Assembly (NCBI GenBank): GCA_030144725.1
Contig: JASKMD010000012.1
Location: 10,463,296-10,527,295 of the forward strand
Direction: 5' to 3'
Source of the DNA: Haematococcus lacustris
Taxonomy: Eukaryota > Chlorophyta > Chlorophyceae > Chlamydomonadales > Haematococcaceae
DNA length: 64,000 nt
Part shown: in pieces, positions 18,708 through 55,791 of the stretch
Layout: each line of letters begins with the position of its first letter
Numbering within the stretch: position 1 is the first letter of the stretch
Notes under the pieces: generated by a model
Told to the model about the DNA's origin: nothing
What the model saw: the letters and a program-made list of their open reading frames with translations, nothing else
The model's database searches: none
Made by a program: the position numbers and the translations under genes

Positions 18708-25453
<6,746 letters not shown>

Positions 25454-28384: not shown

Positions 28385-28429
28385 AGGACCCTGTACAGGT
28401 TCCTAGCGTCATCACTCAGGCAAATTAGT
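28385..28429 (+). repeat. Left terminal inverted repeat
   Basis: Starts AGGACCCTGTACAGGTTCCT and ends CAGGCAAATTAGT. Aligned with the reverse complement of 51769-51816 it shares about 38 of 45 positions, with three one- to two-base gaps. Confidence 0.7.
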
Positions 28430-28548
28430 AACAGCATTTTTGAGATTCAGAGCCTCGGACTTGGTACATAGTCAAATGAAGGCATTGTAAGATTGGGGGT
28501 TGAAACGAAAATTCGTGATTTTGCGCGGTTGGTGAGATACGGCCATGC

Positions 28549-29424
28549 TACAGTACTGTAGGTGTCTACAGTACTGTCGGGGTACCTCGCGAGTACACGA
28601 ACATAGCCTCGGACTTGGTACATAGTCTAAAGAAGGCATTGTAAGATCGGGGGTTGAAACTAAAAGTCGTGATTTTGCGCGGTTGGTGAGATACGGCCAT
28701 GCTACAGTACTGTAGGTGTCTACAGTACTGTCGGGGTACCTCGCGAGAGACCACTTACAGTACTGTAGACATCTACAGTACTGTAGATATCTACTGTACT
28801 GTAGACCTCTACAGTACTGTAGGTACCTCGAGGTACCTCGAGAGACCACTTACAGTACTGTAGATGTCTACAGTACTGTAGACCTCTACAGTACTGTAGA
28901 CACCTACAGTACTGTAGGTACCTCGAGGTACCACGAGAGACCACTAACAGTACTGTAGATGTCTACAGTACTGTAGACCTCTTCAGTACTGTAGACATCT
29001 ACAGTACTGTAGACCTCTACAGTACTGTAGCCATCTACAGTACTGTAGACATCTACAGTACTGTAGATATCTACAGTACTGTAGGTACCTCGAGGTACCT
29101 CGAGAGACCATTGTCAGTACTGTAGATATCTACAGTACTGTAGACATCTACAGTACTGTAGACATCTACAGTACTGTAGAGGTCTACAGTACTGTAGATA
29201 TCTACAGTACTGTAGATATCTACAGTACTGTAGGTACCTCGAGGCACCTCAAGAGACCATTGTTAGTACTGTAGATGTCTACAGTACTGTAGACATCTAC
29301 AGTACTGTAGATTTCTACAGTACTGTAGAGGTCTACAGTACTGTAGGCACCTACGGTACTCTAGACACCCCGGGGTACCTCGCGAGTCCACTAACAGTCC
29401 TGTAGGCGCCTACTGTACTGTAGG
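28549..29424. repeat. Left subterminal palindrome array (TACAGTACTGTA)
   Basis: About 45 copies of the perfect palindrome TACAGTACTGTA, mostly with an 18-bp period and often extended to TCTACAGTACTGTAGA, broken by GGTACCTCGAGGTACC-type spacers that are palindromic too. A roughly 150-bp unit containing CCTCGGACTTGGTACATAG is tandemly duplicated at its outer edge (28454-28590 and 28605-28740). Confidence 0.9.
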
Positions 29425-29560
29425 CACCACGCTCCGTGACCTTGTTGTCCGATTTGGACTGAGACCTAGTGGTTATAAAATCAATTTAGGCCGGAATCAC
29501 GAGCATGTTTAACACATTTGTCTTTTCACACATCAACATAACGACATTCATGTTACACAT

Positions 29561-32500
29561 CTACCTCTTTCTCCCTTGCTTCTTCTTTCTCGCCTCCTCG
29601 TCCCCTGCCTCCTTGCCCCCTGCCTCTTCTGTTTCCTGTGCCTCCTCCGTCCCCTCTGCCACTACAGCCTTTTTTCCCTTCTTCTTCTCCTTCTCTGCTT
29701 CCTCTGCTGCCTCTGCAGCCATGGACTCATCCCAATGGCCCAACAGACTGGTCAACTCTGCTTGTACGAGCTCATCAGACAATGCCCAGTCTGAGTTCCA
29801 TAATGTGTCCACCGGTGCTCGTGCAGGGCGCTCATAGGGCTCAGGCTGCACATAAAGACCCCCATGCAATGGCCCTAACCCCGGTGGCCAGTTGTCATAT
29901 TGCTCACGACGCTGAGGAGGACTGGTGGGCTGGCATTTGTGCACGAACTCCACATCCAACATGGACAGAAAACAGGTGGCATTGCTGATGTAGCCCTCGC
30001 TGCCATACAAGTGCACCCTTGTGGAAGCTTTGTCAGGCAGGCCCCAATCCCCTGCATGGACCGTGTAACCCCGCATCCCAAGCACCTCACCCGGCTGTAG
30101 TGTCACCCTGTAGACCTGCATGTTGGGCATGGCCTTCATGGCCGTCTTCAGGACTCTTGCCGATATCTCCCCCTTGTGCTTCTTCTCCACCTGCAACACC
30201 TGCACATGGCTGCCTGGGCTGACCAGCACCTGCGTCTCTCCAACAGCGATGATCATCACCAGACCATCTCGCCCCCAAATGATCCTTTGTGGGGCTGTGG
30301 GTGTTGCTGCTGAAGACGCAGCAGGGGCTGAGGTAGAGGGGACGGCATGTGAGGGAGGGCTGCTGATCTGGGGTGCTGCCACGGCTGCAGCTGCTGCTGC
30401 TGTGGGGGGTGGGGTGGAGAGGGACGGGTCTGGGTTGACGTCCACATGCAACGCCTGGGCTGCCACCAAACCTGTGGCCTTCGTAAGAGCCATGCCCACA
30501 GAATTGACGTCACGACCATGCATAATGTCGTTGGTGAGCACTGTACCCCCCCTGAGGGTGACCTGCGAAAGCTGTGAGGCATGCTGCTGTAGCTGCCTGA
30601 GGTAAGGGCGGGCAAGGCGGACAGCTGTGGCATACTGCTTCAACCTGGTGCGTGCAGCTTCGCCTGCTGCATCTTGCTGGGCTGCCATGGCTTGGTCCTT
30701 TCTGATGATGCGCAAGGACCTGGCTGTCCAACACCCCGACATGGAGACATCATCAGGCAGGCTGCCATCCGCATTTGCCGTAGTGAACGGCATCTGCAGG
30801 CGCTGGCCTGTGCTGTATCTCACATCGAGGTCCCCTTTGCTTATGACAGGCCAACCGTAACTCTCGGTGAGGGGGATGTCGTTGAAGATGGCGTAGCCGA
30901 ATACCAGGCTGAGGAGCTGTAATGCCCACTCCAGCTGAGACGTTGGGATGAGGTGGCCTGGCAGGCTGGTCATGGCAACACCCATCTCCAGCACAGCCTG
31001 ACGCCACTGATCAGCCTGCTCTGGCGTGAACTTCTTCACCACAGCATTGCCATCGGCGTACTGAGCAGGCCGCCAAACAGTAGCCTGCAGTCACACGCCA
31101 CGTACCTCATTGTTACAAGGGATGGTGTATGGTTAGGGGTAGGGTTAGGGCTAGGGCTAGGGACAGGGGCAGGTCTAGGTCTAGGTCTAGGTCTAGGTCT
31201 AGGTCTAGGTCTAGGTCTAGGTCTAGGGCTAGGGCTTGGGCTAGGGCTAGGGCTAGGGCTAGGGCTAGGGCTAGGGCTAGGGCTAGGGCTAGGGCTAGGG
31301 CTAGGGCTAGGGCTAGGGATAGGGATAGGCATGGACGTGGGGATGGGGTTGGGTTAGGGTTAGGGCTAAAGCTAGAGCTAGGGCTAGGGCTAGGGCTAGG
31401 GTTAGGGCTAGGGCTTGGATTAGGGGATATTTTGTAAGGGCCGGGGTAGGATTGGTGTTTGGTTAGGTTTCCGAGTTATTTGGTTTGGGATGTACTAGGT
31501 GTTGACTCCTTTCACCTTCTTGCTGTTGTCCACTTGTTGGCCACTTCTTCCTCGCTTTTGTCTCACGCTTGTTGCTGCTGCTTCAGCAGTTGGTGGACTT
31601 GCCGTCTGCAATTCAAGTAACACATGTGAGTTTGTAAATTGTTGTCACTTCAGTCTCTTTCAGATATTATATCCTACCTGCCGCCGAGTGGCATTGGTTC
31701 TTGCCGGTGGTTGGGCCTTCTTCGTGGCGGTTACTGGGGGCTGACCTCTGACCACTGCATGGTCCTGGGGGCTTGTCACCTGCATGTGCCATGATGCTGT
31801 TGTTAGTGATGTATCGTTTGTCACCATGTATTCTAAACCTTGTGCTGCATGGTCCCTTGCTCGTTGACACATACTTGGGCTTTCTTGGTGGCGGTAGCTG
31901 CTCGTTGTGTTGTCAGCGCTTGTGCAACAGCACGTTGCTGAGGCCCTGTTCCCTACATGTGACAGAAGAAGAAGGAGAAGAAGAAGACGACTAAGCCGGT
32001 ATTGACCTGGGGCGCGGCCTGTTCCCACCTCTGCATGTGCCATGATGCTCATCTAGTGAATAGACCCATGTGATCATGTATCTCAAATGGTGTATTGAAT
32101 GGCCCCATGGCGGTTGCCCGATTCGTGGCCGTTTATTGTCCCTAGTCTTTCTGATGCATGATTGTCTTACCTTTAATAAGGAAGCCACACTGGCTGACAG
32201 CTGCTCCATCTGCTGCTGACGCTTCTTCTCCTGCTGCTCCTGCTCCAACATCTGCTTCTGCATCTGGGCCCTTGCCTTCTCAGATGCTTGTAACTGCTGC
32301 TGCAGCCTGAGCACGGTGTCATTCTGCTGCCTCAACTGCCGCTGAAGCTCCTGCTGCTGCTGCTCAAATGCCGCGCGCTGCCATTGTTGCAGTTGCACCA
32401 CTGCGTTGCCCATAGCCTCCTCCAACTGTGATACCCTTTGCCATGCAGCCTGTCCGTACGCGACCTCTCGGTTCTGGCGCTCATCAATATGCAGAACCGT

Positions 32501-33830
32501 GTTTATCAGCCGGTTCACGTCCACTGCATGCAAGACACTGTACGCTGTGAAAGTCGGGCGTTATGCTTTGACTGGGTTTCTTTAAGAGCCTACTCATGTC
32601 TGCTGTGAGAACATATGTGCGCAAGGACATGACATGGCTTATTAGCAGGTTTTTTTTGTAATGTGTACATATATACATCCTTACCTGTGGCGGGGTCTGC
32701 TTGGGCAGGGTCTGGGGCTGCTGTGGCAGGGGCTGGGACTGGGGCGGGGGCAGGGGTTGCTGGGCCAAGGGCTGGGGCTGCTGGGGCAGAGGTAGGGGCT
32801 AGGGCTGGGGCAGTGGCAGTGGCGGGGGCTGCTGGGGCAGGGGCTGCTGAGGCAGGGGTTGCTGGGGCAGGTGCTGCTGGGGCAGGTGCTGCTGGGGCAG
32901 GTGCTGCTGGGGCAGGTGCTGCTGGGGCAGGGGCAGGGGCTGCTGGGGCAGGGGCAGGGGCTGCTGGGGCAGGGGCAGCGGCTGCTGGGGCAGGGGCAGC
33001 GGCTGCTGGGGCAGTGGCAGGGGCTGCTGGGGGAGGGGCAGCTGGGGCAGGGGCTGCTGAGGAAGGTGCAGCTGGGGCAGGGGCTGCTGGGGCGGGGGCT
33101 GCTGGGGCAGGGGTAGGGGCTGCTGGGGCAGGGGCTGCTGGGGCAGGGGCTGCTGGGGCAGGGGCTGCTGTGGCCGGGGCTGCTGGGGCAGTGGCTGCTA
33201 GGGCAGGGGCAGGGGCTGCTGGGGCAGGGGCTGCTGGGGCAGGGGCTGCTGGGGCAGGGGCTGCTGGGGCAGGGGCTGCTGGGGCAGGGGCTGCTGGGGC
33301 AGGGGCTGCTGGGGCAGGGGCTGCTGGGGCAGGGGCAGCTGGGGCAGGGGCTGCTGGGTCAGGGGCTGCTAGGGCAGGGGCAGGGGCTGCTGGGGCAGGG
33401 GCTGCTGGTGCAGGGGCAGCTGGGGCAGGGGCTGATGGGGCAGGGGCTGCTGGGGCAGGGGCTGCTGGGGCAGGTGCAGGGGCTGGGTCTGGGGCAGGGG
33501 CAGGTGCTGCTGGGGCAGGGGCAGGGGCTGCTGGGGCAGGGGCTGCTGAGGCAGAGGATGCTGGGCCAGGTGCTGCTGGGGCAGGGGCAGCTGGGGAAGG
33601 TGCAGTTGGGGCAGGGGCAGGGGCTGCTGGGGCAGGGGCAGGGGCTGTGACATGGGCTGAGGTACAGGTAGGGGCTGGGGCAGGGGCAGATGCTGGTGCC
33701 GGTGTTGGTGCTGGTGCTGGTGCCTCTGCTGGTGCCGCTGCCGCTACTGGGCTTGAAGCTGAGGCTGGGGCGGTGCCATGGGGTAGGGCATGGGCAGGAG
33801 CATGGGCAGGTCTAGGCCTGGGATCGGCGT
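29561..33830 (-). CDS. Coiled-coil plus double-stranded beta-helix (2OG-oxygenase-like) protein
   Basis: Exons with agreeing phases: an Ala/Pro-repeat exon (to 32685), 32171-32523, 32007-32030 (24 nt), 31875-31952, 31678-31779, 31516-31605, 29561-31060. Exon 32171-32523 is a long Gln-rich coiled coil (RLQQQLQASEKARAQMQKQM). Small exons repeat TATKKAQ and end in a basic QKRGRSG (AT-hook-like). The last exon (about 500 aa) has LHVDVNP (HxD), VSPGSHV, GYTVHAGDWG (distal His) and TRVHLYG (Arg), the order of iron and 2-oxoglutarate ligands in the double-stranded beta-helix oxygenase fold; about 50 residues of Ala/Pro/Ser spacer split it. C-terminus is Glu/Lys-rich. The Ala/Pro frame upstream belongs to a different register than the OTU gene's last exon, so this is either a separate gene or the same gene after a frameshift. 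Enzymatic activity is inferred only. Confidence 0.55.
31128..31436. repeat. Telomere-like (TAGGGC/TAGGTC)n array
   Basis: Hexamers TAGGGC, TAGGTC and a few TTAGGG, interrupted by the unique spacer GCATGGACGTGGGGATGGGG (about 31328-31347). In the intron before exon 29561-31060. The same spacer occurs inverted at about 47626-47645. Confidence 0.9.
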
Positions 33831-34170
33831 TGCGCCAGTGGGTGGTGCTGAGGTTGGGGCTGGGGCTGGGGCTGGGTCACAGGCAGGGGCAGGGGCAGGT
33901 GCAGGTGCAGGGGCAGGGGCAGGGGCAGGGGCAGGGGCAAGGGCAGGGGCAGGGGCAGGGGCAGGGGCAGGGGCAGGGGCAGGGGCAGGGGCAGGGGCAG
34001 GGGCAGGGGCAGGGGCAGGGGCAGGGGCAGGGGCAGGGGTTGAGGCAGGGGTATGGGCAGGGGCAGGGGCAGGGGCAGGGGCAGGGGCAGGGGCAGGGGC
34101 AGGGGCAGGGGCAGGGGCAGGGGCAGGGGCAGGGGCAGGGGCAGGGGCAGGGGCAGGGGCAGGGGCTGGC
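32690..34170. repeat. Hexamer and 18-mer repeats encoding Ala/Pro linker
   Basis: 33885-34170 is nearly pure (GGGGCA)n; 32690-33640 is GGGGCTGCTGGGGCA-type. On the minus strand the likely coding register reads (PA)n or PAPAAPAP. The opposite strand reads Gly/Ala. In-frame TAGs appear in the Pro/Gln register (for example 33369-33371), arguing that this register is not the coding one. Confidence 0.8.
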
Positions 34171-37100
34171 TCAGGGGCTGATGCTGTTGCTGTGTCTGTT
34201 GCCGGCGCTGGGGTATGGGCTGGAGGTGCGCTGAATGGCTTGATGAGGGGATGGGGGGTAGCTGCTGGGATGGGGAGAGAAGGGAAAGATAGCGAGCGCC
34301 CTTCGCTTGTAGACCCAGACGAAACAGCTTGGTGTCCTGTGGTGTCATGTACAAGTGAAGCATGATGGTGAGGATCAATGCTGATGTGTGATAACCCTGT
34401 ATCACACTCTTCTACCTCAGTTCATATTTCACCTACACATGCACACACATCCATCCATCTCCCCTTATCAATTGACAACACGATGCTTATGTTGTGAAGT
34501 AACCATTTGACACTATGCATGCATGGTGAACCCGATTTCTATACATGGCCTAGGGGTAGGGACTCACCGCTGGGAAGGGGGAGGGGCCCCGGTGATGGCT
34601 GAGATTCAGTATCATTGTCCAGCCCAGAGGATTGTGGGGAGGTGTGCCCAGGGTCGTGGGATGGTGGTGGTGACGGTGAGGAAGGAGACTCAGGTGACAC
34701 GATGGACATGGGCGGAGATGGCACCGGTGATGGAACGTCGCCATCCTGCAGCGCGGACAATCGCCATTTGCTATGTGGTACACCTGCCTGAACATCCTCT
34801 GCCTTACCATGCGTTTGGTGCGGATAACTTACCGACAATGGGTCAGCCATGTCACTTGGTGCCCTGTTCTTCCACTTGGGGTGCACATCGATCTGCATGG
34901 TAACACAAGAGCGGTCAGTCTGATCATATCACATGTGGTAATGCAACCCATACATAAATTTTACTATGGTTGAGGAACGTACCAAAGAGCACCACTCTCC
35001 CTCAGTCTCCAGGGTACACTGCAGTAATCGCTGCCGAGCTAACATCCGCTTGGCATCATAACGGATGCCCGTTTGCATGCAGTTCCGCCTACGTGCATCA
35101 TGGTATCTGTGGTATTTGTTTGCATTCTAGATTAGACTAACCTTAATGACGTTTGATAGCATGCAAGCTATGTTGCTGTGCGAAGTCATGTCGTCCTAGT
35201 TGTATACCTGAAGCTTCGGCGCCATAAGTACTCCATGTGGATTAGCAGCCGCAGCTCATCACTCCAATCATCCGTTTGCTGTGGGCACGTCCCATCAATG
35301 ACCTCCCATTCTGTTTCTTTGACGTTCGTATCCAAAAACTCTACCAGGTTAGACTCCTCCTCTGGTGTAAGGCCCTGCGCCATCCCATCCAAGGCAAATT
35401 GTGTCTTTATTCATGTACTGACCGTATACTTAAGATTGCTGACAGGTTTGGAAGTCACTGACCTCTCCCCTGGGACAGAAGATCACGAATATGTCATGGC
35501 TCGGGTACACAGCGATCAGCCGGCCCCCCATGGGGATGAAAAACACCTCGTACTGGGTTAGGTGGTAACGTTTCAATATAGCATGGGTTCTTAACGATCC
35601 TTTCATCACTTCTTGGCCGATGCATGGGTCTAGACATTGGCCATCACGTCTGTCCCGGTGGATGAAGAAGTTCTACATTGGCAAAGAAATGTGAAGTCTA
35701 CGCTCAGGTTGTACCTCCATGCTGTGAATCGACGTATTAGCCCATACCTTCATGCGTCCAAGGGCCGTCCTCAGCACATTGTTGTCAAGGGTTTTGGGTC
35801 TATTGTTCCCATCAGGTCCTTGCTGTCAGAACATGCCTCCACCGGGTGGCAACGCAGCCAGTGAGGCCTTCACAATGGCACATGGCACGGAGGAATTGAA
35901 GTTACTAGTTTTGGTAAGGGGTAAGGTGCTGTCGTTTTCATTCAGCTTAGCCTCACCAATTCATGCATGGTAAACTTACACGGAAAATGTTCTTGAGTGG
36001 ACGTGCTGGTTGCTGTTGATGCTTGTCTGGTCCGGTAGCGTCACTTGGAGATGGGTGGGGTGCTCCACGACCTCCTGCCTGCGCCTGCATTGATGTTTAG
36101 AGTATTTGTCTATTAGGGTATAGTCTTTACGTGTTAGCTTATCAACCTAATACTGTCAAGATCATGTGTGGACATAGGTGACTAGCGCAGACTTATATGG
36201 CCTTACCTCAGCTTCTTTAGATGTAACATGGGGGGCAGCTCCAGCAGTGTACGGTTGTGCGTATTCTGCATGGCAGCAACAAAGCATATCTACATGTATG
36301 ACCCACATCTCTGTACATGCATTAAGATGTCATGTGCTTATTGCGTGTCCCGGACACCACGTATCCGTATGATGTGACCCATGCCTCAATACCTACCAGT
36401 TGCTTCTCCTGCTCCTGCTTCCGCTCCTGCTGCTGCTAAGCGCATGGGGGGGCCTGGGTGGCCCTGGCTGGGCTGGGCCTGTGAAGCCCGCTTCCCTCGC
36501 CGAGGTGGGGCGGGCGGGTTCAGGCCTAGCCCTTGGCTGCTGCTCGTGGTAACACCACCCCTGCTGCCACCTGCACTTGCAGGGCCACCTGCACCACATG
36601 CTGCTGCTGCTGCTGCTCCTCCTGCTCCTGCTGCTGCTCCTGCCCATGCTGCTGCTCCTGACTTTGCTGCTGCTGCTGCTTCTGGTCCTGCTGCTGCTTG
36701 GCGCATGTGTGGGGCTGGGCGGCTCTGGCTGGGTGTGGCCTGTGAAGCCCGCTTCCCTATACGAGGCGGGGGGGGCGGGCACAGGTCTGTTGCTGCTGCT
36801 GGTGCTGTTGTTACTGTTGCTCCTGCTGCTCCAGACCCTGCTGTTGCTTTGGACCATGGTGCTGCCCTTGCGCCTGCTGCCGCTGCTGCTGCTCCTGTCC
36901 CTGCTGCTGCTGCTCCTGCTGCTGCTCCTGCCCCAGGGTGCATGGGGGAGGTTGGGCCCATGGGGGGGGCTGGCCGGCCCTGCTTGGGCTTGGGATGTGA
37001 AACATGCCTCCCTGGACGAGGCGGGGAGGAGAGGGAGCGATCTGACCCCTGGCTGCTGTTGGGGGTACCACCACCTCTGCTGCCACCCACACTTGCTGGG

Positions 37101-40100
37101 CTACCTCCACCTCTACCTGCTGCTGCTGCTGCCGCTCCTGCCACTGGGTACATGTGGGGGGTTGAGCCCATGGGGAGGGCTGGCCGGCCATGGCCAGGCT
37201 TGGGCGGTGAAGCTCGGCGACCACGTTTGATCACACGTGTCCACTCTTGATCACTGTCCTCACCACCTGCCCAAGCCTCCGCTGCTGTTGCTGCTGTTGC
37301 TGCTGCCACTGTTGCTGCCGCAGCTGCTGGTGCTGCCGCTGCTGCTGCTGCCGCTGCTGCTGCTGGGTGCATGGGCAGGGTTGGGCCCATGGGGAGGGCT
37401 GGCCGGCCCTGCTTGGGTTTGGCCTGTGAGGCCCGCTTCCCTGGCCGTGGGGGTGGGGCGGGCGGGTTCAGGCCTGACCCTTGGCTTCTGCTCGGGGTAC
37501 CACCACCCCTGCTGCCACCCACACTTGCTGGGCTACCTCCACCTCCACCTGCTGCTCCTGCTGCCGCTCCTGCCCCTGGGTGCATGGGGGGGGTTGGGCC
37601 CATGGGGAGGGCTGGCCGGCCCTGGCCAGGCTTGGGCTGTGAAGGTCGCTTCCCTATGCGAGCTGGGGGTGGCAGGTCAAGGCATGACCCCTGGCTGTTG
37701 CTCGGGGGACCACCACCCTTGCTGCCTCCCAAACTCCCAGGGCTGCCTGCTCCACTTGCTGCTGTTGCTGTTGCTGTTGCTGCTCCTGGTGCTGCTCCGG
37801 CAGCTGTAGCTGCGCCTGCAATTTGCACGGTGGATACCTTTCACTTTGCAACGCATGTGCACATGGTCGCCAACAGTACAAAGTGCATGGCTCACCGCTG
37901 AAGCCCAGACGCAAGCCGGCCTCAATGGCCTGCGCCAATTCTGCCTTCTTGGCGAGCGCACGTTGCTTAGGGTCACGCGAGGCTTGCAAGTCTCTGATCT
38001 GCACAATTGAACACCCATTCACTTGATCTCATCGTTGCTTAAGGTCACGCATGGCTTGCATGTGCCTGATCTGCACAATAGCACACCTGTTGATTTGATC
38101 TTATTGTTGCCTCGCACAGCTGTTGCACTAGCTAACTATAGCAGCTAACCCTCCTCACCTCCTGTCCAATGCTCGTCATGATGACCTCGTTCACCTCGTT
38201 AGCCAGCAAGCGCTGACCGTTTGCCCGCCCTAAAACCACAAAATGGTTATCGTTGATGCGCATGAGTGGCACAGCCTCACCTTGGACCATGAGTGGTCCG
38301 CTGGGGGGTGCAATGCTGGCCAGCTGCTCCGGGCTGAACAGCTTGCGGCAATTGGAACCCCCATAATGCCAGAGATCTTGCTGACCGCCCCCATTGGTCA
38401 AAATGTCTATTGGCAACCCAAGGACGACTGAAGCCAGTAAGCAGGCGGTGGCACCGCTCCACGCCCTAGGCCGCCCAACTTCTTGGTCGAGGTACTCCTT
38501 CAAGGTGATGCTCTCCATTGCCATCACCCCTGTGGTGGGATCCACCTTTTCCACCCACTCTGCTGCTGACGTCATCATCGCAACAAAGCTGGTAGGGTCG
38601 CTTGCCCACTTGTCACTGTGTGCTAGGACCCTCTGTCCCACCTCATATACGAGCTGGCGAAGCTGGATGTGCCCCTGCGTATCGACAAGTGAGGTATGTC
38701 ATGTCTCATAGTGGCATAGCGTATGCACAGTCTACAATGATGACACATGAGCAACTCAGCATGCATCAAGACCCTTGACATAATGGGAACGTGTAATGCA
38801 GGACCCATGTCCACCCACTGTGTCGTTGCTCAAACCAGCTATCATTGCCAAAGCCCGGTAGAAGCAGTTGCCATCGCCCTTCACGGTGAATGCCATGATA
38901 CCGTGACGGCTGAGTACCTCAAGGGCCAGTTCCAGTCCTTGCCCCCAGAGGGGGCCATCAGCATCCTCCAGGAGAGGTTTGATGGGGAGTGTCTGCATGG
39001 CACACGTGTTCCTAGTGAGTCTATGTTGCTGCATAGCATTCCTGTCTTACCTCTGTTCACCTGCATGGGTCGGGCCTCAGCCTCATGCGCTGGCAGTGAC
39101 TGAGTGGCTGATGCCTGCACATGGCATATCACATAACAGCTGCCCATGCCTAGCATCACCATATGATGGAGTAGAGGTACCAATGCCACACAAACAATTG
39201 CCATGTCCTCACCAACGCCGATGCTGGCTGGGAAGGCTGCAGTTGCGAAACCTGCAGGCGAGGGCTGGCCGTGGTTGGGCTGTGGTAGCCCGGCTTGATT
39301 GCACTGCTCTTGACAATGCGGGCATAGGTCGCCTGTATGCATTAGGCGACATTCAGTGCATAGTGCACATCAAGTAATGCTGACGCTGCCCATTCGCACA
39401 TGCATGTCGTTCATGACCTGACCTGGGAGTTTCCCACGTCAAGGAAGGGGTGCACCAAGTCCATCAATCCTTGATGGACATTTGCGAGTTGCTTCTCGCC
39501 AACGTCCACGTTCTTCTTGTCGCCTAATGCAACACACAACACTCTGAGCACTAGGTAGGCCGAAGGCATGCTTCAAATAGCACGCAACATGCAACATGCA
39601 ACATCAAACATGCTTTCTGCTCAACCAACACGCAACACGTGTTACTCACTGCGCCAGGTCCAGTACCATTCAGCCAGGGTTAGGAAGGGCTGTAACATCG
39701 GTGGTGCCTCATCCGTGTACATGCCCGGCAGGCGCTTTTCCATGTCTTTGTAACGCATGCGGGTGGTCTCCATCTGTTTCCCAGCTGTGGCTGAGCTGTC
39801 GGTGTTGTCTCTGTTGATGTTCCGGGCAATCCTGCAGGCCCAGCAGGTGCATGGTGCGTGATGCGCCCTGTGCATGGTGCGCTGTGTATGTCACATGGTG
39901 CATGAGTCACACCTGTCCTGCAAGGCTGTCAGCTCCTCCTTCGTTGGAAGGTAAGCCGAGACGTGGAAAAGGGCCATGCAGCCGATGGCCATGCCGTTCA
40001 CCACGTCCTTGAGCCAGTCTGGCACCCTTGGGCTGAGGTATGGCCCAGGCTCCTGTAGTACATAATGTCGATGCTGTCAATGCATGTCATGTCAATATGT

Positions 40101-40292
40101 ATAAATGGTTGCAGTGTGCAGGGTCCGCACCACGTCTGGGCTGCGCGGGTACAGGGACTGCACCGCCCATGCCATCACCCGGTACACCAGTTCGGTCTTG
40201 GGCAATATGGCGGCATCGATGATAACCTCCCCCATTGCGATTACCTCCGCGAACCTGGCTGCATCTTCGAAAATCGACTTCTCCGTGGGCAT
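33744..40292 (-). CDS. OTU cysteine-protease domain protein of the large element
   Basis: Nineteen exons, all phases agreeing: 40131-40292, 39913-40052, 39650-39831, 39423-39523, 39213-39332, 39061-39114, 38819-38992, 38159-38674, 37896-37998, 36397-37815, 36207-36265, 35980-36084, 35715-35822, 35463-35672, 35208-35404, 34983-35088, 34833-34892, 34568-34745, and an exon from 34336 reading to a stop at 33744-33746. ATG at 40292. OTU deubiquitinase-type domain: VKGDGNCFYRALAMIAG (catalytic Cys) in exon 7, RAWSGATACLLASVVLG and INDNHFVVLG (catalytic His) in exon 8. Then a 473-codon Pro/Gly/Ala exon with about five repeats of KRxSQxKPxQGRPALPMGP, a conserved unknown region (NFFIHRDRRDGQC, YEVFFIPMGGRLIAVYPSHD, DDWSDELRLLIHMEYLWRRS), and a Pro/Ser-rich tail. 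Over 1,330 residues. It may continue into 29561-33830 if a one-base shift in the hexamer repeat is an error. Role: perhaps protection of the transposase from ubiquitin-dependent decay, or polyprotein cutting (inference). Confidence 0.7.
36420..37780. repeat. Coding tandem repeats in the OTU gene's large exon
   Basis: Roughly 200-270 bp units, about five, each encoding a basic KRxSQxKPxQGRPALPMGP segment, a Pro/Gly linker and an Ala run. The reading frame is preserved through all units, which supports translation. Confidence 0.75.
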
Positions 40293-40528
40293 TCTATTGA
40301 CTGATGTTTGCCGCGTATGTGTTACAGCGGTTCGCGGCTAGGATGAACGTACGCAATTGGTGCTGGTTGCATGAATGTACAGTAACGAAGAAATATCCAA
40401 TTCTGGCCTTATCTCAACAACTTGGTCTGTGAGCCATTGTGTGCCTTACATGTCACCCAAGTTGCCGCTATACCAACCAACCTCCTCCAAGCTAAGACGC
40501 TGTAACCACCAGCCTCCCTCGAGACCCC

Positions 40529-40619
40529 TACAGTACTGTAGACCCCTACAGTACTGTAAGTGTCTCCAGTACTGTAGACATCTACAGTACTGTAGACACC
40601 TACAGTACTGTAGACCCCT
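40529..40619. repeat. Internal palindrome array (TACAGTACTGTA)
   Basis: Five copies with an 18-bp period, between the 138-aa gene and the OTU gene, that is near the middle of the large element and upstream of the OTU gene's ATG. Confidence 0.9.
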
Positions 40620-40935
40620 ATGAGTCACTTTCGCATTAGAGGTGTGTTGACGAGACACGTTGAGGTCAGTTACATGCATTGTCTACCACCACTAACGTTG
40701 CATGAACACAGACATGTACATTACGATGTAGTGAGACTTGAAGGCAACGGTGCTAAAGATGAGACGGCAATTACCGTTGGCATCCAAGACCACTATTCCC
40801 TATCCACTCAAGGCCACATCATGTCGGTCATAACGTACGCTCAACGATGCACCAGGAGCCATGACATTCTTCACTGCCCACTCCTGCCATAAATGCAGCG
40901 GGTGCATGACATTCCTGAACTTGACCCCACGCATG

Positions 40936-41688: not shown

Positions 41689-44684
41689 CTACTCCAGCCC
41701 ACTTCCCTCCTGCTCCTCCTCCTCTTCCTCACCTCTCCCCTCTGCATCCTTCACTTCCCCCACCCCGGCCTTGTCCCGCTGCTGCTGTTGCTGCCCCGGC
41801 TGCCCCGTCCCCTGCCCCAGCTGTCCTGCTGCCCCTGCTGCCTCCACGTCCCCCGGCAGGACAGGTGCCGCAAGGGGGGGGTTGAGCTCCTTCTCCACCT
41901 CAGCCTCAAAGTCGGCAAAGGCCTTGTCCATGATGGCCTACAGGAAAACCACACATCACATGGGTTGGTGCGCGGCGCAAGCATGACACCAGCAGATAAC
42001 CATGCGGTGAGCTGGGGTAGAGCCCACCTCCATCTTTCTGTCAGACCAGCGTGTGACGTCCCGCACCACATGGCTGACCTTTGTCTCCTACAAGCACGCA
42101 TGCCCAAGACCTTCAACACTCATCCATGGGCATTGCATATTAGCTTAGGAGGCTGCATGTGTACGGCACTCACCTCCATGTCATGCTTGCTGGCCAACCG
42201 GGAGACCAGCTCCTCGCCTTTGCGGTGCATCATCTCCATCCAGGTGACTGGGGGGAAGGCGACAGCCCAACCCTCTGGCAAGGGGAACGAAGGCACTGCA
42301 GCGTACACATGCACATGGCATCCAAGAGTGTTTCACTTAACGCACACCAACACACAACATGCCCACAATGCACAGCATGCACATAACATGCATAACATGC
42401 ACTCGGTGCACAACATGCATGCAATGCACAACATGCACACGGTGCACAATGCAATGCACAGGTACAGAGCCTTACCCCCCAACTCCTTCAGATGCTGGAC
42501 CTGGCGCAAGCCCTCTGTCCATGAGGCGAGCACCGTCATCCTGTTGCCTGCCTTGCGGGTCACCCCGACATCCACGCCCCAGATCCGTGTTTGCTCCATG
42601 ACTGCCGGGGAGATGGACTTGACGCGTTTCTGAGTTTCCACTAGCATTGCGAAGGCCCTGCAGTAGCACATCATGACAAGACAGTGACCATGGGGCACAA
42701 CCTTGGCCAGCAAGTCATGGGACTCCTACAACACAACGGGCACCCACTCGTTTATCAGGGTCTTAAACCTCTGGTAGGCGTTGTAGGGGGCAGGCAGGGT
42801 CCCAAACTCCTTGAACAAGCCCTTCATCACTTCCGCGATGCAGAACTCCTCTGGCATATCCCACTTGAACTCCTCAGGGAGTTTTTCCGACTTGGCAATG
42901 TCCCCATGGGTGAAGCCGGGTATGATAAACAACCCTTGGCCCTGCATGAAGTCAGGCATGGACCTCCATGGTATTGGGTTACAACGCTGACTACTATGGA
43001 ACCGCTCATAACACATGCACCCACCTCCGGGAGCGTGTGGCACCGCATGCCCCACTTCCTCACTGCTGCACTGGCCAATGCCTTGGCCGCTTTCCCAACC
43101 GACACCTACACATCACAAGCACAACATGTGAGGTTGTGACGTTGTAAAAAATACATCCGCATGTCTTCATTTACCACACTCACCTCAAAATAGGTAGCGT
43201 CTTTCGTGATCTGCACAGCAAATACAAAGGTAGTCCGGTAAGCTGAACGAGGCAAGACAGGCAGGCCAGGGGGAGTTTGCATAGATACTAGCCAATTACT
43301 CTTACCATGCTCCTAGCAGACAACCTGGTCGCTAGCGAGACCCTTTTGGACGGGGAGATGTCCAATCTGAACCCCTGGCCCTGCATGAGGCACCACATTC
43401 AGCATGATGCCGGATTTGCTGCATACCATGCAAATGATAGGCTTAGTGAAGAATAACATCCACACACACATACTCACACTCACCATTGAGCCACCTCCGA
43501 CTTCCCCCTTCCCCATGCTGCGGGTGGATGTGGAGGCCGGGGAGGAAAGGAGGGGGCCAGCTGCCGGTGCCTACATCAGCAACCATACAAGGCCACACTC
43601 AACATGAGGTTCAACATGTGGTAACATGTGGTTCATAACCACATACATAACCGTACCACACACACACAAGCACACCTTACTGACACCACTGCTCCCGACT
43701 GCTCCATGAGCATGGGGTCCAGCTGGGGACCCCACGGCACGCCGACTCCCAGCCACCCTCTTATGCACAGGCTGGGTCTCGACCATGCCTTCGCCACTGT
43801 CCCCCGCCGGCTGCAGCCACACACGACCACCATAATGGTGCAGCATGGGCAACTGGCAGCTGGAACATGAGCACATGTACAGACACTGGCATGCACCCTG
43901 TGATTCACACACCTGCCTCACTGCCTGGGCTGAGCCACGCTTAGTCCCTCCCACATGCACCACTGCTGCAGGACCAGGTTTACGTCCTGCTGCTGCAGCT
44001 GCTGAGCTGGGCGGCTGGGCTGGGGCTGCCTCTTTCGCGGGGCCAGCGGCATCCTTCTGTATCCGCTGCCTGCTGGCGGCTGGCGGCTGGGGTAGGGGCT
44101 GCAGGGGGGCTGCAGGGGGGGCCCAGGCCTTGTCGGCACCAGACCGTGTGCTGACAGGTTGTGCGCTGGCTGCCTCCTGCGACACACCGTCTAGTAGGGG
44201 CTCTGCTGCCTGTTCCTCACCAGGTCCCTGCACAATCACATGCAAAGTCAACATACGCCTACCACATCAGGCTTTGAATGCATGTAGGGGGGATGAGGCA
44301 AGCACCAAGGAGCCACCTAACCTGCTGAGACGTGGACAACGGGTACAGGAACACCTCGATGACGATGCCACCGGTCTCATTCCTCCATGTCACGAACGCT
44401 AGGCCAGTGTCGTCGAATAGATTATGCCAAGTAGCCAGGCTGGTCCCCAGGTTAACCATGAGGCCTGCCATGGTGGTGTAGTCCTCTGGAGTATAGGGCA
44501 CCTCAAGAAGCGGCTCACGATCTTCATCGAGGGACACACGATACAAGTTCCCCGTTTTCTTCAGCAACTCTTCCATGGCTTTAGCGGTGAATGACTCTTG
44601 GCCGCGATGAATGCTCATCGGGTCGCTTTCACTACCGCCAACATTGAAGATGACCTCTACATCGATGATGGTTGAGGTGGCCAT
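41689..44684 (-). CDS. 655-aa unknown protein of the large element
   Basis: Twelve exons join in phase to exactly 656 codons: 44322-44684, 43913-44227, 43681-43852, 43484-43570, 43325-43380, 43184-43210, 43025-43105, 42733-42986, 42476-42657, 42174-42295, 42028-42087, 41689-41937. ATG 44684 opens MATSTIIDVEVIFNVGG. The N-terminal 121 residues look globular (EVPYTPEDYTTMAGLMVNLG, GIVIEVFLYPL). A Pro/Ala/Gln linker follows, then a second ordered region (PWRSMPDFMQGQGLFIIPGF, WGVDVGVTRKAGNRM, ETKVSHVVRDVTRWSDRKME) and a very acidic tail (GEEEEEEQEGSGLE) at the stop. The fifth exon's donor (gttgtc) and the eighth's (gttgta) are weak but keep the phase. No family recognised. It is the first gene leftward from the shared promoter, opposite the transposase. 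Confidence 0.6.
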
Positions 44685-44981
44685 TGGTGATTAAAGACTG
44701 AGGAACGAGGGAGGGATAGTGCACACAGCAATGAGTGCGGGTCCGATTTTTGCGCTTGTGTATTGCATCAAACACCACACCCAACCCAACAGTCGCGACC
44801 CGCATCAGCCACCGCCGACAGCGCAAGGGGCGACCCACACTACCACATACTAGCTGAAAGCCTTGTCTAGCACGGCCCATCACAAATAAATGCCACGGCC
44901 ACGGCCAGGTGGGGCAACCACGCAGGACCCACAGTGACAGCTAGCGGCTAGGCCAGAGTCTAAAACAGTGGTGACTCGTGA
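44685..44981. promoter_or_regulatory. Shared promoter region between divergent element genes
   Basis: About 300 bp between the ATG of the leftward 655-aa gene and the open frame of the rightward transposase. No TATA box stands out. Position is the main evidence. A possible acceptor (tctattgcag, ending 44994) suggests the transposase transcript may have a small upstream exon here. Confidence 0.4.
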
Positions 44982-45281
44982 TTGGTCTATTGCAGACCCA
45001 ACCCGGTCTCCTCGTCGTCCCAACATCGCCCAGCCATCACAAGAACCACCAGAGACGCGCTCCCAACCCTCGTACGTGGCCGACAGGGCGATGCTAAAAG
45101 TAGGCGACGTTTACTTACGGCGGTCGACGTTGGCTGCAGGCATCGCGCTTTGTCACATTGGACTGACTTTGTGCTGACGAAGCGCAATTTACCCTATGTA
45201 CTTCATCGATTGCAGCATGCTCGACAACAATCCCAAGCGTGGATCCCACACCCACCCCGTTCCCCACCCCATTCCAAGCCA

Positions 45282-48200
45282 ATGTGGCCTCCTCCCTCGC
45301 CTAGTCCCCTGCCACGGCCCCCCACACCCCCCATGCCAGCTCGTCCCCCACCAGATTGGCCTCCTCCCTCACCCTCACCGCTCCCAGGCCTGCCACCCAC
45401 ACCGCTGAGGCCAACGCGTCCACCAGTAGATTGGCCACCTCCCTCCCAGGTGTGGCCGCCCCGGCCTTCCACCACCACCTTCCTAGGCCGCCCGGTACCA
45501 CCCCTACCCCCTGATTCATCCCACCCAACTCCCTGCTCTCCAACGCCGCCACAACGTCCCGGTAGGAACACAAAGCCTCCCAACCCCCCCCCACCTCCCC
45601 CCCCTGCTCCTCAACCCTCCCATCACACAACTCCGCCTCTACAATCCCTCCTTCACCGTCTGTCAAATGGAGAGCCACTGCGCCCAGGAGATGAAAGGCT
45701 CCTGTCGACCCGTCACTCTGAGGACGACCTTGTTCTTCGGCCAGAAATGGCTCCACTACGCCCAGGAGATGCAGGGCGGCTGCTGGCCCGTCACTATGAG
45801 GACGACCTTGTTCTTCGGCCAGAAATGGCTCCACTGCGCCCAGGAGATGCAGGGCGCCTGCTGGCCCGTCACTATGACGATGACCTTGTTCTCCGGCCAG
45901 AAGTGGAGTCAAGGAGCAGACGAGAAGAAGGTTGGTTGGGAGACGACATGGAGACAGATGAGGGGGAGCAGCCAAGGAGGGCCGGTGTTAGTGGGCCCAC
46001 GGCAGTTCGTGGCATGGCATCACCTGGATTGAGCCCTGTGAATCCCCCCTCCCCTCCGTTCCCTCCCCCGCCCCTCCCCCCCTCACCCCATGCAACAGGC
46101 AGCCCACCCAGTGGCAATGCAACAGGCAGCCCACCCAGCGGCAATGCAAAGGGTTGTTGTGTTGGTGCCAGATGCTCCATGGGCTGCCCCCATGCATCCT
46201 CCACCACCTCCCAATCCTCCACCACCACCTCCCAGTCTGAGTCTGAAGTTGTATCTGAGCAGTCAATGGACACAGGTATCAGCTCTAATGACAGTGGAAA
46301 ACGCAACAACAGAGGCAACAGGGGAGCCCGGCATGCACAGCGAGGTGAAGGAGTTGCTAGGAGTGGACGAGGCAGCAGGGGCGGCAGTGTGGACAGAGGT
46401 CGAGGCCGGGGCCGGTCCCGTGGGCGTAGTGTTGGCCGCCCTCGTAACAGTAGGAGGGGGGGGTACAGCAGAGACAGGGGCCCCCGTCCGGAGAAGGGGC
46501 GGAGGCGTTGCAGGACAACAGACATCCAGCGACGCTTGAGTGAGCCTGTGTCTGCATGGCACCCTATGACCACTACGTATGACAACGTGGAGAGGATCCA
46601 CAACTGGATGAAGGCCATCACTCCTGACGCCAAGGTGTTTAAGGCGCACCTGCTGGAGCTGGGCTACATGTTCGGACAAGGGGAGCTACGTACGCCTCAC
46701 AACCACCCCAGCACTCCGTACCTGTACCGGCAAACATTGGAGACCTTTGACCAGCCAGAGAGTCGGCTCCACGTCTGCAACGGCACGGCTGAGCGTCCCT
46801 GTGGGCACACCTTTGGCCACCTGCCCCGGTGGGTGCTATGTTTACCCAAGTACCCATGACCCACGCCCCATGCCCTTTGCCACAGGTTGTATATGTTGCC
46901 ATACACAAACAAGCGGATGGTTAGGGGTGAACCCATGACTTCGTGACATGCGTTGCAGAGATCAGTGGCCTCTGCACAAGAAGGAGGTGTGCCCCAAGTG
47001 CAAGCTCACACGTTTTGAGGGTGAGTCAACATGCATGGCCAATACCACAGAGGGCAAGGATGTGGTGTGAACAGGCGGTGCTCATGCATGATGTTATAGG
47101 TGACCGCGATAACCTGCGGCCTCGAGCAGAACTTTTCTACCTGGAACTGGAGGAGACCCTTAATACCATGCTCCTCAGCCCCGGGATGCAAATGTGGTTC
47201 AACCGAGACGTGGACAAGGGCCCGGGATCTTTCTATGCCAGTGAGTGAACGTTAATCACATGCAACGTGGTTGAATAAAACACACTTAAGGGATTGTTGG
47301 ATGGGCACAGGTGAGGCTGGCAAGTTCATGCGAGACAGCGTGGGAGCTGACCAGTTCGACAACCCGTACGCAGTGCGCTTGAGCCTGGGCATCGATTGGG
47401 TGAAGATCACTGAAACACAGTCCGTCGGGATTATTGTGTTGCAGGTATGAGCAAAAAGCCCTAGCCCTAGCCCTAACCCTAGCCCTAACCCTAACCCTAG
47501 CCCTAACCCTAACCCTATCCCTATCCCTATCCCTATCCCTATCCCTATCCCTATCCCTATCCCTATCCCTATCCCTATCCCTATCCCTATCCCTATCCCT
47601 ATCCCTATCCCTATCCCCAACCTAACCCCATCCCCACGTCCATGCCCAGCCCTAGCCTGAGCCCTAGCCCTAGCCCTAGACCAAGCACTAGCCCTAGCCC
47701 TAGCCCTAGCCCTAGCCCTAGCCCTAGCCCTACCCCTAGCCCTAGCCCTAGCCCTAGCCCTGGCCCTAGCCCTAGTCCTGGCCCTAGCCCTAGCCCTGTC
47801 CCTAGCCCTAGCCCTGTCCCTAGCCCTAGCCCTAGCCCCAGCCGTAGCCCTAGCCCTAGCCCTAGCCCTAGCCTGAGCCTGAGCTCTAGCCCATACAAAT
47901 GAAGCGTGTCCACCCCAGGTCATGGATGTGCCCACCAAGTACATGAGCAAGGACGAGACCTGGGCTATTGTGGGTGTGATCTTGGGTGCTGACAAGTCCA
48001 AGTTTGTGGAGGGCTACGTGAACCAGGTGAACAAGCTGAGGCATATGTTCTCAGAACCACAACAGAATGATACATGACTAACAGATAGCAGTGTGTGTTT
48101 GGCAGTTGCTGGTGGACCTCCGTGACTCGCTTGATGAAAGCAAGCGCGACTGTTGGGTCCACCTGCACGCCCCCAAAGGCTACCGTGGTGCCAATGAGGC

Positions 48201-49178
48201 CACGAAGATCCGGCTATACCCTATGCTGGCCAGCGTGGTGGCGGACACTCCGGCTCGGTGAGTAAGGGTAACATATACACCACCAACTAGTTGGGTGTAA
48301 GGCCAATGATGCATGGTGCTTTGCAGGATGTGTTTGATGAAGAGTCTTGGCCATGGTGCTTGCATGAACTGTGCCTGGTGCTGGCTGCGGACCCCTGGTG
48401 ACGGTGGTGTGCACCCCAAGGGGTACTGGCTGCCGGTGGAGGTGTTGGTGCCAGACCTGAGCCGCTATCCTCCTCCCCCCCCAGAAGAAGATGCTGGTGT
48501 GGGTGCTGGGGTGGGGAGAGGTGGTCGCCATACGGGCAGGGCGGCTGGGGTGGTTAATGGCCCAGGGCGTGAAGGATTGAGAAGCCAGGGTGCAGGCCAG
48601 GGTGGAGGTCAGGGCGTTGGCCAGGTTGCAAACCAGGGTGCGAGCCAGGGTGCGGGCTTGGCTGCACCGCAAGGTGATCAGGGTGGGCAGGCTGATCGGT
48701 TTGAAGGGCGAGATGAGGAGGCAGATGGTGGTGGTGGAGAGGTTGGTGGAGGGGCTGCTGGTGGCCAGGGGCATGATGGCGAACCCGTGGTGGGCAGGGG
48801 TGTGGTGGGCGAATGGTTTGAGGCTTGGATGTGGGATCGTCGGAACCGTTTGTCAGAGGGGGACATGCAGACTCGTGGCGCAGCCGTTGAGGGGGGCTGG
48901 TTGAAGGGCACAGACATCGGGTGCTGGGGCCGGCCTATAGTGACCAAGTACCTCAAGTACGTGCAGGCCAAGTGGCTGCATGTGGTGCCCATCGCGCACG
49001 CCTTCCTGTTTGGTGTTGTGAAGCACCATATGCAGTGGCTGTTTTCCAAGAGCGGGCCTTTCAGCAAGCGCCAAGGCAACGACAAGGAGAGTCCACGTGA
49101 GACGATGATCAAGCGCTTCCAGGACATGCACTTCCCGGTGACGTTTGGACGACAACTGAAGCACACAGAGGATTTCAC
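45282..49178 (+). CDS. Plavaka/Tnp2-like DDE transposase, 3' end lost
   Basis: Exons: 45282-46828 (open further upstream to 44995), 46959-47020, 47100-47240, 47311-47444, 47919-48026, 48106-48257, 48327-49178; all phases agree. ATG 45282 is the first ATG in the open frame. N-terminus: Pro-rich, three 26-residue repeats ([20 protein letters not shown]), an RG-rich box ([20 protein letters not shown]). Then a Cys/His cluster (PCGHTFGH...[10 protein letters not shown]) and the catalytic core: [11 protein letters not shown] (first Asp), [28 protein letters not shown] (second Asp) followed by [11 protein letters not shown], then [18 protein letters not shown] and [15 protein letters not shown]. 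This series matches fungal Plavaka / plant Tnp2 transposases (IDWFNP, IPGP, LPA..., C-x2-C, AHxLL(Y/F)GVVK). The part carrying the last acidic residue is absent: the next exon, at 50889, reads TNNSM then stop. Confidence 0.7.
47456..47892. repeat. Telomere-like (CCCTAN)n array
   Basis: CCCTAG, CCCTAA and (CCCTAT)n hexamers in the transposase intron 47445-47918. A spacer CCCCATCCCCACGTCCATGC at about 47626-47645 is the reverse complement of that in the 31128-31436 array, so the arrays are an inverted pair. Confidence 0.9.
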
Positions 49179-49236
49179 GTGAGTGTGCTGATCTGTGTGG
49201 GGCATGGTCTGAAAGGCGTCAACAGTGCTGGCAGGG

Positions 49237-50835
49237 TCTACAGTACTCTGATGGTCTACAGTACTGTAGAGGTCTACAGTACTCTGATGGTCTACAGTAC
49301 TGTAGAGGTCCACAGTACTGTAGAGGTCCACAGTACTGTAGCAGTCCACAGTACTGTGGAGGTCCACAGTACTGTAGAGGTCCACAGTACTGTAGAGGTC
49401 CACAGTACTGTAGAGGTCCACAGTACTGTAGAGGTCCACAGTACTGTAGAGGTCCACAGTACTGTAGAGGTCCACAGTACTGTAGAGGTCCACAGTACTG
49501 TAGAGGTCCACAGTACTGTAGAGGTCCACAGTACTGTAGAGGTCCACAGTACTGTAGAGGTCCACAGTACTGTAGAGGTCCACAGTACTGTAGAGGTCCA
49601 CAGTACTGTAGAGGTCCACAGTACTGTAGAGGTCCACAGTACTGTAGAGGTCCACAGTACTGTAGAGGTCCACAGTACTGTAGAGGTCCACAGTACTGTA
49701 GAGGTCCACAGAACTGTAGAGGTCCACAGTACTGTAGAGGTCCACAGTACTGTAGAGGTCCACAGTACTGTAGAGGTCCACAGTACTGTAGAGGTCCACA
49801 GTACTGTAGAGGTCCACAGTACTGTAGAGGTCCACAGTACTGTAGAGGTCCACAGTACTGTAGAGGTCCACAGTACTGTAGAGGTCCACAGTACTGTAGA
49901 GGTCCACAGTACTGTAGAGGTCCACAGTACTGTAGAGGTCCACAGAACTGTAGAGGTCCACAGAACTGTAGAGGTCCACAGTACTGTAGAGGTCCACAGT
50001 ACTGTAGAGGTCCACAGTACTGTAGAGGTCCACAGAACTGTAGAGGTCCACAGTACTGTAGAGGTCCACAGTACTGTAGAGGTCCACAGTACCGTAGAGG
50101 TCCACAGTACTGTAGAGGCCCACAGTACTGTAGAGGCCCACAGTACTGTAGAGGTCCACAGTACTGTAGAGGTCCACAGTACTGTAGAGGTCCACAGTAC
50201 TGTAGAGGTCCACAGTACTGTAGAGGCCCACAGTAATGTAGAGGTCTACAGTACTGTAGAGGTCCACAGTACTGTAGAGGTCTACAGTACTGTAGAGGTC
50301 CACAGTACTGTAGAGGTCCACAGTACTGTAGAGGTCTACAGTACTGTAGAGGTCCACAGTACTGTAGAGGTCCACAGTTCTGTAGAGGTCCACAGTACTG
50401 TAGAGGTCTACAGTACTGTAGAGATCCACAGTACTGTAGAGGTCTACAGTACTGTAGAGGTCCACAGTACTGTAGAGGTCCACAGTACTGTAGAGGTCCA
50501 CAGTACTGTAGAGGTCTACAGTATTGTAGAGGTCGACAGTACTGTAGAGGTCTACAGTACTGTAGAGGTCCACAGTACTGTAGAGGTCCACAGTACTGTA
50601 GAGGTCTACAGTACTGTAGAGGTCTACAGTACTGTAGATGTCTACAGTACTGTAGAGGTCTACAGTACTGAAGAGGTCTACAGTACTGTAGAGGTCTATA
50701 GTACTGTAGAGGTCTACAGTACTGTAGGTGTCTACAGTACTGTAGAGGTCTACAGTACTGTAGGTGTCTACAGTACTGTAGGTGTCTACAGTACTGTAGA
50801 GGTCTACAGTACTGTAGAGGTCTACAGTACTGTAG
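49237..50835. repeat. Right subterminal palindrome array, 18-bp period
   Basis: About 88 units. Most read CCACAGTACTGTAGAGGT, that is the left-array palindrome with one arm changed (T to C) and homogenised; the last roughly 12 units return to TCTACAGTACTGTAGA. An 18-bp period keeps all six frames open, which creates spurious open frames up to 743 codons. It starts 58 bases after the last well-supported transposase exon. Confidence 0.95.
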
Positions 50836-51540
50836 CTGCCTTCCCCCCATGCATCCTTAACCCCCATGCCCCCTTCACCCCCATGCAGGAACAACTCAAT
50901 GTAACCCAAGCTCGTTTGTTATCCCGACAGAGCTATGCAAATGCGCTGACAGCAAAGCGTGCCTATGTTGCCGAGCCCAGCCCAGCCCTGCCCAGCCCTA
51001 CTCAGCCTCTAGGATTCGTTATCGACCCTGAGCCCAGCCCTTGTGTTAGGACCACAAGTGGTGATGTAATGATGTAGGCTAAGAGTCATGATGTAATGAT
51101 GTGAGGTTAGATGTAATGATGGATGGTTGAGGGCCAACCGCAAACAACTTTAGGGGCAATCTCTGCCGCACTCGATATCACACGGGAGGGTGCGGTGCAG
51201 GAGGTTGTTGTGATTGCGGGGCATCATCAACATCCACAGCTTTGCGGGAGCTTGCAAGCCGAGGTACCCAGTACAACCGACAGAACGGACCTAGCTTGCG
51301 ATAGAGACGGGCCCCGGCCTTAGACCTTACACGTATGTATGTAGCTCCCTATGGCGACCTTATTGCGTGGACACAACTTTCGGTACAAATACCTATATCG
51401 AGCTTGCGGGCCTACGCTTCGACGCCTCTCACTATTTATAGCACGCAGAAGCTGACGGTGCAATCGCGGTAGCAAATGGTGGTTTGAATGTGAAGAACAG
51501 CATGGTACCCTATTTACAAGAGGCCTTGTCAAATCTGACC
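50836..51540. other. Stretch between the right palindrome arrays
   Basis: A possible acceptor (ccccatgcag, ending 50888) opens a frame that stops after five codons in the transposase phase. The rest has GATGTAATGATG repeats (51060-51120) and nothing else recognisable. Confidence 0.5.
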
Positions 51541-51650
51541 TACAGTACTGTAGACATCTACAGTACTGTAGACATCTACAGTACTGTAGGTGTCTACAGT
51601 ACTGTAGACATCTACAGTACTGTAGACATCTACAGTACTGTAGGTACCTA
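51541..51650. repeat. Outer right palindrome array (TACAGTACTGTA)
   Basis: Six copies with an 18-bp period in the left-array form (TCTACAGTACTGTAGA), 120 bp inside the right terminal repeat. Confidence 0.9.
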
Positions 51651-51768
51651 CACTCCAACTGCTCACATACTCAGATTTTCAACAAGCTTTAAGTGGCGTT
51701 GGAGTCGCAAGGACAATCCGAGGCGAACCGCATCAAAAAACTACCCCCCTAGGATGACGAATATCCGC

Positions 51769-51816
51769 ACTAATTTGCCTGTGTGATCATGGTCGTAGGA
51801 CCCTGTACAGGGTCCT
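51769..51816 (-). repeat. Right terminal inverted repeat
   Basis: Plus strand ACTAATTTGCCTGTGTGATC...TAGGACCCTGTACAGGGTCCT. Its reverse complement begins with the full 20-bp palindrome and ends CAGGCAAATTAGT like 28385-28429. Further in, GCCTCGGA is also shared between the two ends. Confidence 0.7.
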
Positions 51817-55775: not shown

Positions 55776-55791
55776 ATAGTCGATGAAATAG

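Follow-up and report, generated by a model that had tools for sequence, protein, structure and literature searches.

A 23-kb mobile element of Haematococcus lacustris, probably a CACTA/Plavaka-like transposon, with OTU-like and oxygenase-like genes

Is a 23-kb segment of the Haematococcus lacustris genome, in which a transposase gene stands beside candidate genes for an OTU protease and an oxygenase, a single transposon, and do the two enzyme genes serve it? The segment lies in the window analyzed here, 64,000 bp of contig C22 (10463296-10527295), and the genome searched with it comprises 307.9 Mb in 597 contigs. An earlier note on the window had proposed a transposon that pairs a Plavaka-like DDE transposase with these two proteins. 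We find that positions 28413-51785 are a mobile element of 23,373 bp, with corrected ends, and that it belongs to a multi-copy family whose ends and target duplications are defined, whose genes are linked and of which a second copy is collinear with it. The element is likely to be a CACTA/Plavaka-like (CMCT) cut-and-paste DNA transposon with CAC...GTG ends and 2-bp duplications, carrying OTU-like and oxygenase-like genes.

The ends of the element read CAC(T/A)CAGGCAAATTAGT and form a 17-bp inverted repeat found at 28413 and, with one mismatch, at 51769, the only two matches in the window at up to three mismatches; shuffled windows gave a mean of 0.16 matches, and two were reached in 2 of 100 shuffles. 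Thirty oxygenase loci were fetched together with 1.5-kb flanks, and 16 of them, the window included, have the start CACTCAGGCAAATTA (15 of 29 without the window); the copies C83 and C96 have it as well once fetched further out, while the flanks outside it differ between loci, as judged by eye. The right ends of C373, C96 and C83 coincide with window position 51785 within one base. All four copies read at both ends are bordered by 2-bp target duplications (AT/AT in the window, TG/TG in C83, AC/AC in C96 and GT/GT in C373, the last being compatible with 4 bp as well). At a paralogous empty site (L001) the surrounding repeat is unbroken and reads ...tagcgtcaccatggtcgta..., with one mismatch to the window, in which the equivalent site reads ...tagcgtcAT, then the element from CACTCAGGCAAATTAGT to ACTAATTTGCCTGTGTG, then ATcatggtcgta... 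Inverted ends had been placed earlier at 28385 and 51816; the repeats are real, and their actual limits are 28413 and 51785. We set the ends there, and not at the 18-bp palindrome GGACCCTGTACAGGGTCC (28386 and 51798), because the palindrome belongs to a resident repeat, the copies share the CAC start and L001 is empty. As an element end the palindrome was rejected, given its 1673 genomic places at up to one mismatch (0 for the reversed control) and the uninterrupted repeat at L001. Palindromes of this type, likewise resident repeat, also occur at 51962, 62181 and 62202, and many of the genomic places listed are paired, approximately 149-170 bp apart.

A search of the genome for copies sharing both ends and gene order, which the earlier note had suggested, yielded C83, a copy of about 25.0 kb on another contig (6574219-6599208) whose oxygenase, OTU gene, gene B (the third minus-strand gene), transposase, array and right end are collinear with those of the window; it was fetched without the stretch between oxygenase and OTU. 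Two internally deleted copies, C96 (about 17.8 kb) and C373 (7,962 bp), keep both ends and part of the transposase 3' end, and another (C476) is broken off inside the OTU gene. Genome matches numbered at least 96 for the oxygenase, 72 for the last OTU exon and at least 181 for the transposase exon, counts that are lower bounds, with 84 of 5329, 75 of 75 and 135 of 10910 candidates scored, respectively. Linkage was tabulated for 80 merged oxygenase loci with 65 of the 72 OTU and 75 of the 181 transposase matches. At 31 of these loci the same strand carries an OTU match no more than 35 kb upstream (downstream on the same strand, 0; opposite strand, 2 and 2), and at 45 the opposite strand carries a transposase match no more than 60 kb upstream (other arrangements, 3, 3 and 1). 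Both genes are linked at 22 of the 80 loci, the window included: 14 of the 30 with oxygenases at least 90% identical, 8 of the 27 at 65-89% and none of the 23 at 50-64%; two neighboring C100 loci have a single OTU match and a single transposase match between them. Oxygenases of 78-100% identity occur with OTU versions near 40% as well as of 80-100%, and an exchange of modules is therefore indicated.

Two annotated H. lacustris proteins share 91-92% identity with the oxygenase-like protein. Across 11 aligned sequences, the window's among them and identity falling to 52-55%, H345 never varies and H215, D217 and R358 almost never do, so that the HxD...H...R motif is conserved. Three public gene models (P0001, P0002 and P0005) lack the stretch with HxD, a gap that we would read as an error of those models, since the aligned loci, though different copies, retain it. 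The ratio of nonsynonymous to synonymous substitutions (dN/dS) against the window lies between 0.27 and 0.86, being below 1 in 29 of 29 comparisons and near 0.3 in most; these all share the window's branch, hence they are not independent. Even for pairs with dS above 0.4 the ratio is about 0.3. Internal stops are absent from 25 of the 30 fetched loci; in four the frame is interrupted once, at codon 2, and the remaining locus contains two stops. From the motif and the low dN/dS, an oxygenase is the probable identity, a call less firm than had been stated before. This transposon gene of the alga also appears, at 82% identity and probably through contamination, as protein P0003 on a contig of 1220 bp that is filed under a bacterial (Bosea) metagenome-assembled genome. 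Between the OTU and oxygenase genes, a 484-codon open frame of degenerate repeats occupies 36386-37840 on the minus strand.

The predicted OTU-like protein contains GDGNCFYRALA and DNHF, that is, the Cys box DGNC and a late His as in OTU cysteine proteases, and both motifs persist, as GDGNCAYRA and DDNHF, in a copy whose exon 8 is 39% identical. Ten PDB entries matched at E<=10, seven of them otubains or OTUD3; the remaining three carry the names replicase or RNA-dependent RNA polymerase, and we take them to be viral OTU domains. The catalytic motifs kept at 39% identity, together with profile and PDB matches that are weak yet agree with one another, point to an OTU-like protein. A search of the protein database with the OTU model gave no match at E<=0.01 among 7995 candidates scored. 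Exon 8 compared with C83 has dN 0.055 and dS 0.190, and dN/dS is mostly below 1 in this gene as in the oxygenase-like one. Gene B is 89-97% identical to C83 in amino acids over the six exons compared, and its product may serve as an accessory DNA-binding protein. The introns of the predicted gene structures are all GT-AG, and one gene B junction is uncertain. An open frame at 40939-41351 on the minus strand (MTSFIFLPMDIDTSEA...), between gene B and the OTU gene, is possibly a further small gene.

The transposase gene is on the plus strand and diverges from the three minus-strand genes, an arrangement already recognized in the earlier note. Its model contains GIDWV, ADTPAR and CMNC, resembling the D, D and C(2)C motifs of Plavaka/CACTA transposases, with the H motif uncertain; presumably the catalytic residues lie within these strings. 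The start is probably located earlier, in the open frame 44982-46828. Four protein relatives were found, three from H. lacustris (46-47% identity) and one other (72%), and exons 1, 4 and 6 have dN 0 and dS 0.035-0.071 against C83. The palindrome arrays reported near both ends are confirmed by exact ACAGTACTGT cores, which number 28 in 28413-29430, 77 in 49180-50850 and 6 in 51530-51785, with 4 in 29431-49179 and none in 20000-28412. In C83 the transposase resumes after the large right array (exon GWIMDDF... plus a long open frame); judged from that copy, the array is therefore placed in a transposase intron.

Several observations weigh against a transposon carrying two enzymes of these kinds, and part of them concerns the transposase itself, which had no useful Pfam match up to E 10 and whose final catalytic E was not identified in the model; structure prediction for its relatives gave no usable fold (mean pLDDT, the predicted local distance difference test, 32.5). 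What persists of the Plavaka-like DDE assignment is thus the resemblance in motifs. The window is without the 3' exons, encoding the C-terminus, that follow the array in C83, and C83 keeps that part with exon 2 of the model altered; by this exon model we claim an undamaged transposase in neither, and the pairing of transposase, OTU and oxygenase-like genes is borne out by many copies, the intactness of the window's own copy being unsupported. For the OTU protease proposed earlier, motifs and PDB matches agree and the Pfam match falls short (E 0.011; score 16.6 against a cut-off of 23.3), the PDB matches having E values of 0.012-2; moreover, dN exceeds dS in OTU exon 3 against C83 (0.210 and 0.176) and, with small counts, in two of the six gene B exons. 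The oxygenase-like protein matched no useful Pfam family up to E 10, TET/JBP included; PDB searches with a single sequence and with a profile gave one and three matches, all in the low-complexity part or reaching from it; its structure prediction (mean pLDDT 33.7) produced no usable fold, so the double-stranded beta-helix was not obtained; and a scan of IMG/VR with its alignment gave 31 pattern matches, none of them confirmed. An unrelated element-specific protein that bears the motif by chance, and is no Fe(II)/2-oxoglutarate (2OG) enzyme, would account for this failure of profile, PDB and fold, but fits poorly with the conservation of H345, H215, D217 and R358 among relatives as distant as 52-55%, and we consider it unlikely, though not negligible. 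The earlier claim of an oxygenase thus retains the motif and the low dN/dS.

Neither gene need serve transposition, of course, and both could be passenger cargo kept only through recent spread. No OTU match is linked at 49 of the 80 oxygenase loci, among them all 23 at 50-64% identity (eight of which have linked transposases, of 49-56%), so the OTU gene is not obligatory; internally deleted copies such as C373 and C96 also persist. Cargo without a role would not, however, be expected to hold dN/dS near 0.3 at dS above 0.4, nor to show the exon 8 values and the OTU catalytic motifs kept at 39% identity, and we judge this explanation rather improbable. The segment might also be a nest, an oxygenase/OTU element and a transposase element each with its own ends, as the small internal array, the free combination of OTU and oxygenase versions and the shared right end could suggest. 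The final 133 bp of the element occur at no fewer than 39 further places at 98-100% identity, including nine exact matches, with 40 of 617 candidates scored; the earlier note had named ends flanking unrelated sequence as telling against its proposal. That is found in part: the three right ends fetched of the 39 (L048, L049 and L050) match the window from 49330 or 49654 up to about 51785 and carry, to the left of the array, 0.7-1.0 kb unrelated to the window, 94-97% alike among themselves over about 0.7 kb. We interpret them as another, possibly numerous, element family sharing the right end, from which the window's right end may have come by recombination in the array. The shared end does not refute the element, given that a second copy is collinear and that deleted copies retain both ends. 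In C83 the genes follow the same order inside the same pair of ends, bordered by a single 2-bp duplication, the deleted copies C373 and C96 keep both outer ends, and the terminal repeat has no internal copy in the window at up to three mismatches; a nest therefore seems very improbable.

A single CMCT transposon with accessory enzymes is thus the explanation we favor, and its working can be outlined as follows. The transposase or the gene B product would bind the subterminal palindrome arrays, after which the transposase would move the element. The OTU protein could strip ubiquitin from transposase, repair or chromatin proteins, and this putative deubiquitinase may thereby shield the transposase or alter chromatin, comparable to roles suggested for the proteases of Ginger1 and Helitrons. 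The oxygenase might modify DNA or chromatin and relieve silencing, by analogy with fungal TET/JBP transposons. The window copy, which probably lost its transposase C-terminus by recombination within the palindrome array, would rely on other copies for transposition. A bolder proposal, which we put forward tentatively and hold to be possible at best, is a chlorophyte CMCT lineage, with CAC ends and 2-bp duplications, apart from CACTA and Plavaka. It would carry a two-enzyme kit: a 2OG oxygenase from a family not yet described, with DNA or chromatin as its target, and an OTU deubiquitinase with versions swapped between elements, which would jointly counter silencing and transposase turnover. Enzymes of its own beside the transposase suggest that the element has tools against host silencing or protein breakdown, and the pair raises the question of whether large transposons need silencing escape and ubiquitin control independently of each other. 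With many open copies present in an algal genome, both enzymes are accessible to testing; the mixed OTU versions and right ends suggest that such elements evolve in modules.

Table 1. Features of the element and its borders in the window.
Feature	Positions	Strand	Basis
Resident-repeat palindrome, outside element	28386..28403	.	Genome count; L001
Target duplication AT, left copy	28411..28412	.	Equals 51786-51787; paralogous empty site L001
Left terminal inverted repeat CACTCAGGCAAATTAGT	28413..28429	+	Same start in other copies; repeat search of window
Left subterminal palindrome array, CTACAGTACTGTAG type	28550..29423	.	Repeat and core counts
Oxygenase-like gene, main exon (HxD 215-217, H345, R358)	29564..31090	-	Genome matches; motif; dN/dS
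Oxygenase-like gene, upstream exon per Haematococcus gene model P0002	31678..31827	-	P0001 model reaches 31964
OTU-like gene, 8 exons, 490 amino acids (DGNC in exon 7, DNHF in exon 8)	38132..40292	-	Gene model; weak Pfam; PDB; relatives
Small internal palindrome array	40522..40620	.	Repeat search
Gene B, 12 exons, 622 amino acids	41689..44684	-	Gene model; copy C83 comparison
Transposase, 7 modelled exons	46566..49178	+	Gene model; relatives; copy C83
18-bp palindromic array, 88.9 copies, within predicted transposase intron	49235..50835	.	Repeat search; copy C83
Right subterminal palindrome array	51540..51652	.	Repeat and core counts
Right terminal inverted repeat, reverse complement CACACAGGCAAATTAGT	51769..51785	-	Right ends of C373, C96, C83; repeat search
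Target duplication AT, right copy	51786..51787	.	Paralogous empty site L001
Resident-repeat palindrome, outside element	51798..51815	.	Genome count; L001

Adjoining the element, arrays of a second kind of palindrome (ATCTGTGCAGAT type) lie at 51962-52670 and 55783-55971 and perhaps belong to another element. In the left flank, exons at 10388-11864 on the plus strand contain GSGSFGRVHIV, YRDLK and CGTPDYLAPEVV and resemble those of a protein kinase.

With CACTA/EnSpm transposons the element shares CAC...GTG ends and subterminal repeats, the latter typical of that group, but the CACTA/EnSpm target duplication is 3 bp and that of the four copies read here is 2 bp. Plavaka duplications of 2-3 bp accommodate the 2 bp found, whereas Plavaka ends are TGT..ACA or CATCA..TGATG and the Haematococcus element starts with CAC after unrelated flanks; the Plavaka transposase signature is D, D, C(2)C, H(3-4)H, E (PMC12730594). 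The element fits neither group fully, because the 3-bp duplication of the one and the end sequences of the other are not found. Fungal Plavaka and EnSpm transposons carry TET/JBP genes, for which an anti-silencing role has been proposed, and they unite a CMCT-type transposase and a dioxygenase gene in one element (Kojima 2025, PMC12730594), comparable to the transposase and oxygenase-like gene here; the main text of that paper leaves OTU unmentioned, and, unlike the fungal proteins, the Haematococcus oxygenase-like protein has no TET/JBP similarity detected by Pfam. Ginger1 is likewise a DDE DNA transposon with an OTU or Ulp1 protease, but its transposase is of the integrase type with a C-terminal OTU domain, the elements tabulated for it measure approximately 2.6-7.1 kb, and no oxygenase is mentioned in the part of that account at hand (PMC2836005). 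Helitrons and Helentrons also bear OTU or VTD deubiquitinase domains, yet are rolling-circle elements without a DDE transposase, again with no oxygenase mentioned in the excerpted source (PMC9741609). The Plavaka-flanked giant repeats of Amoebidium are similarly very large and have a Plavaka transposase, but contain tyrosine recombinase gene clusters, and their main text does not mention OTU (PMC11244446). In agreement with the earlier note, which had thought the combination undescribed, no report of OTU and oxygenase together in one transposon was found among the papers listed in the literature searches, subscription papers being outside their scope. The comparison suggests that what is new is the pair of OTU and oxygenase in one element, each being already known separately in transposons.

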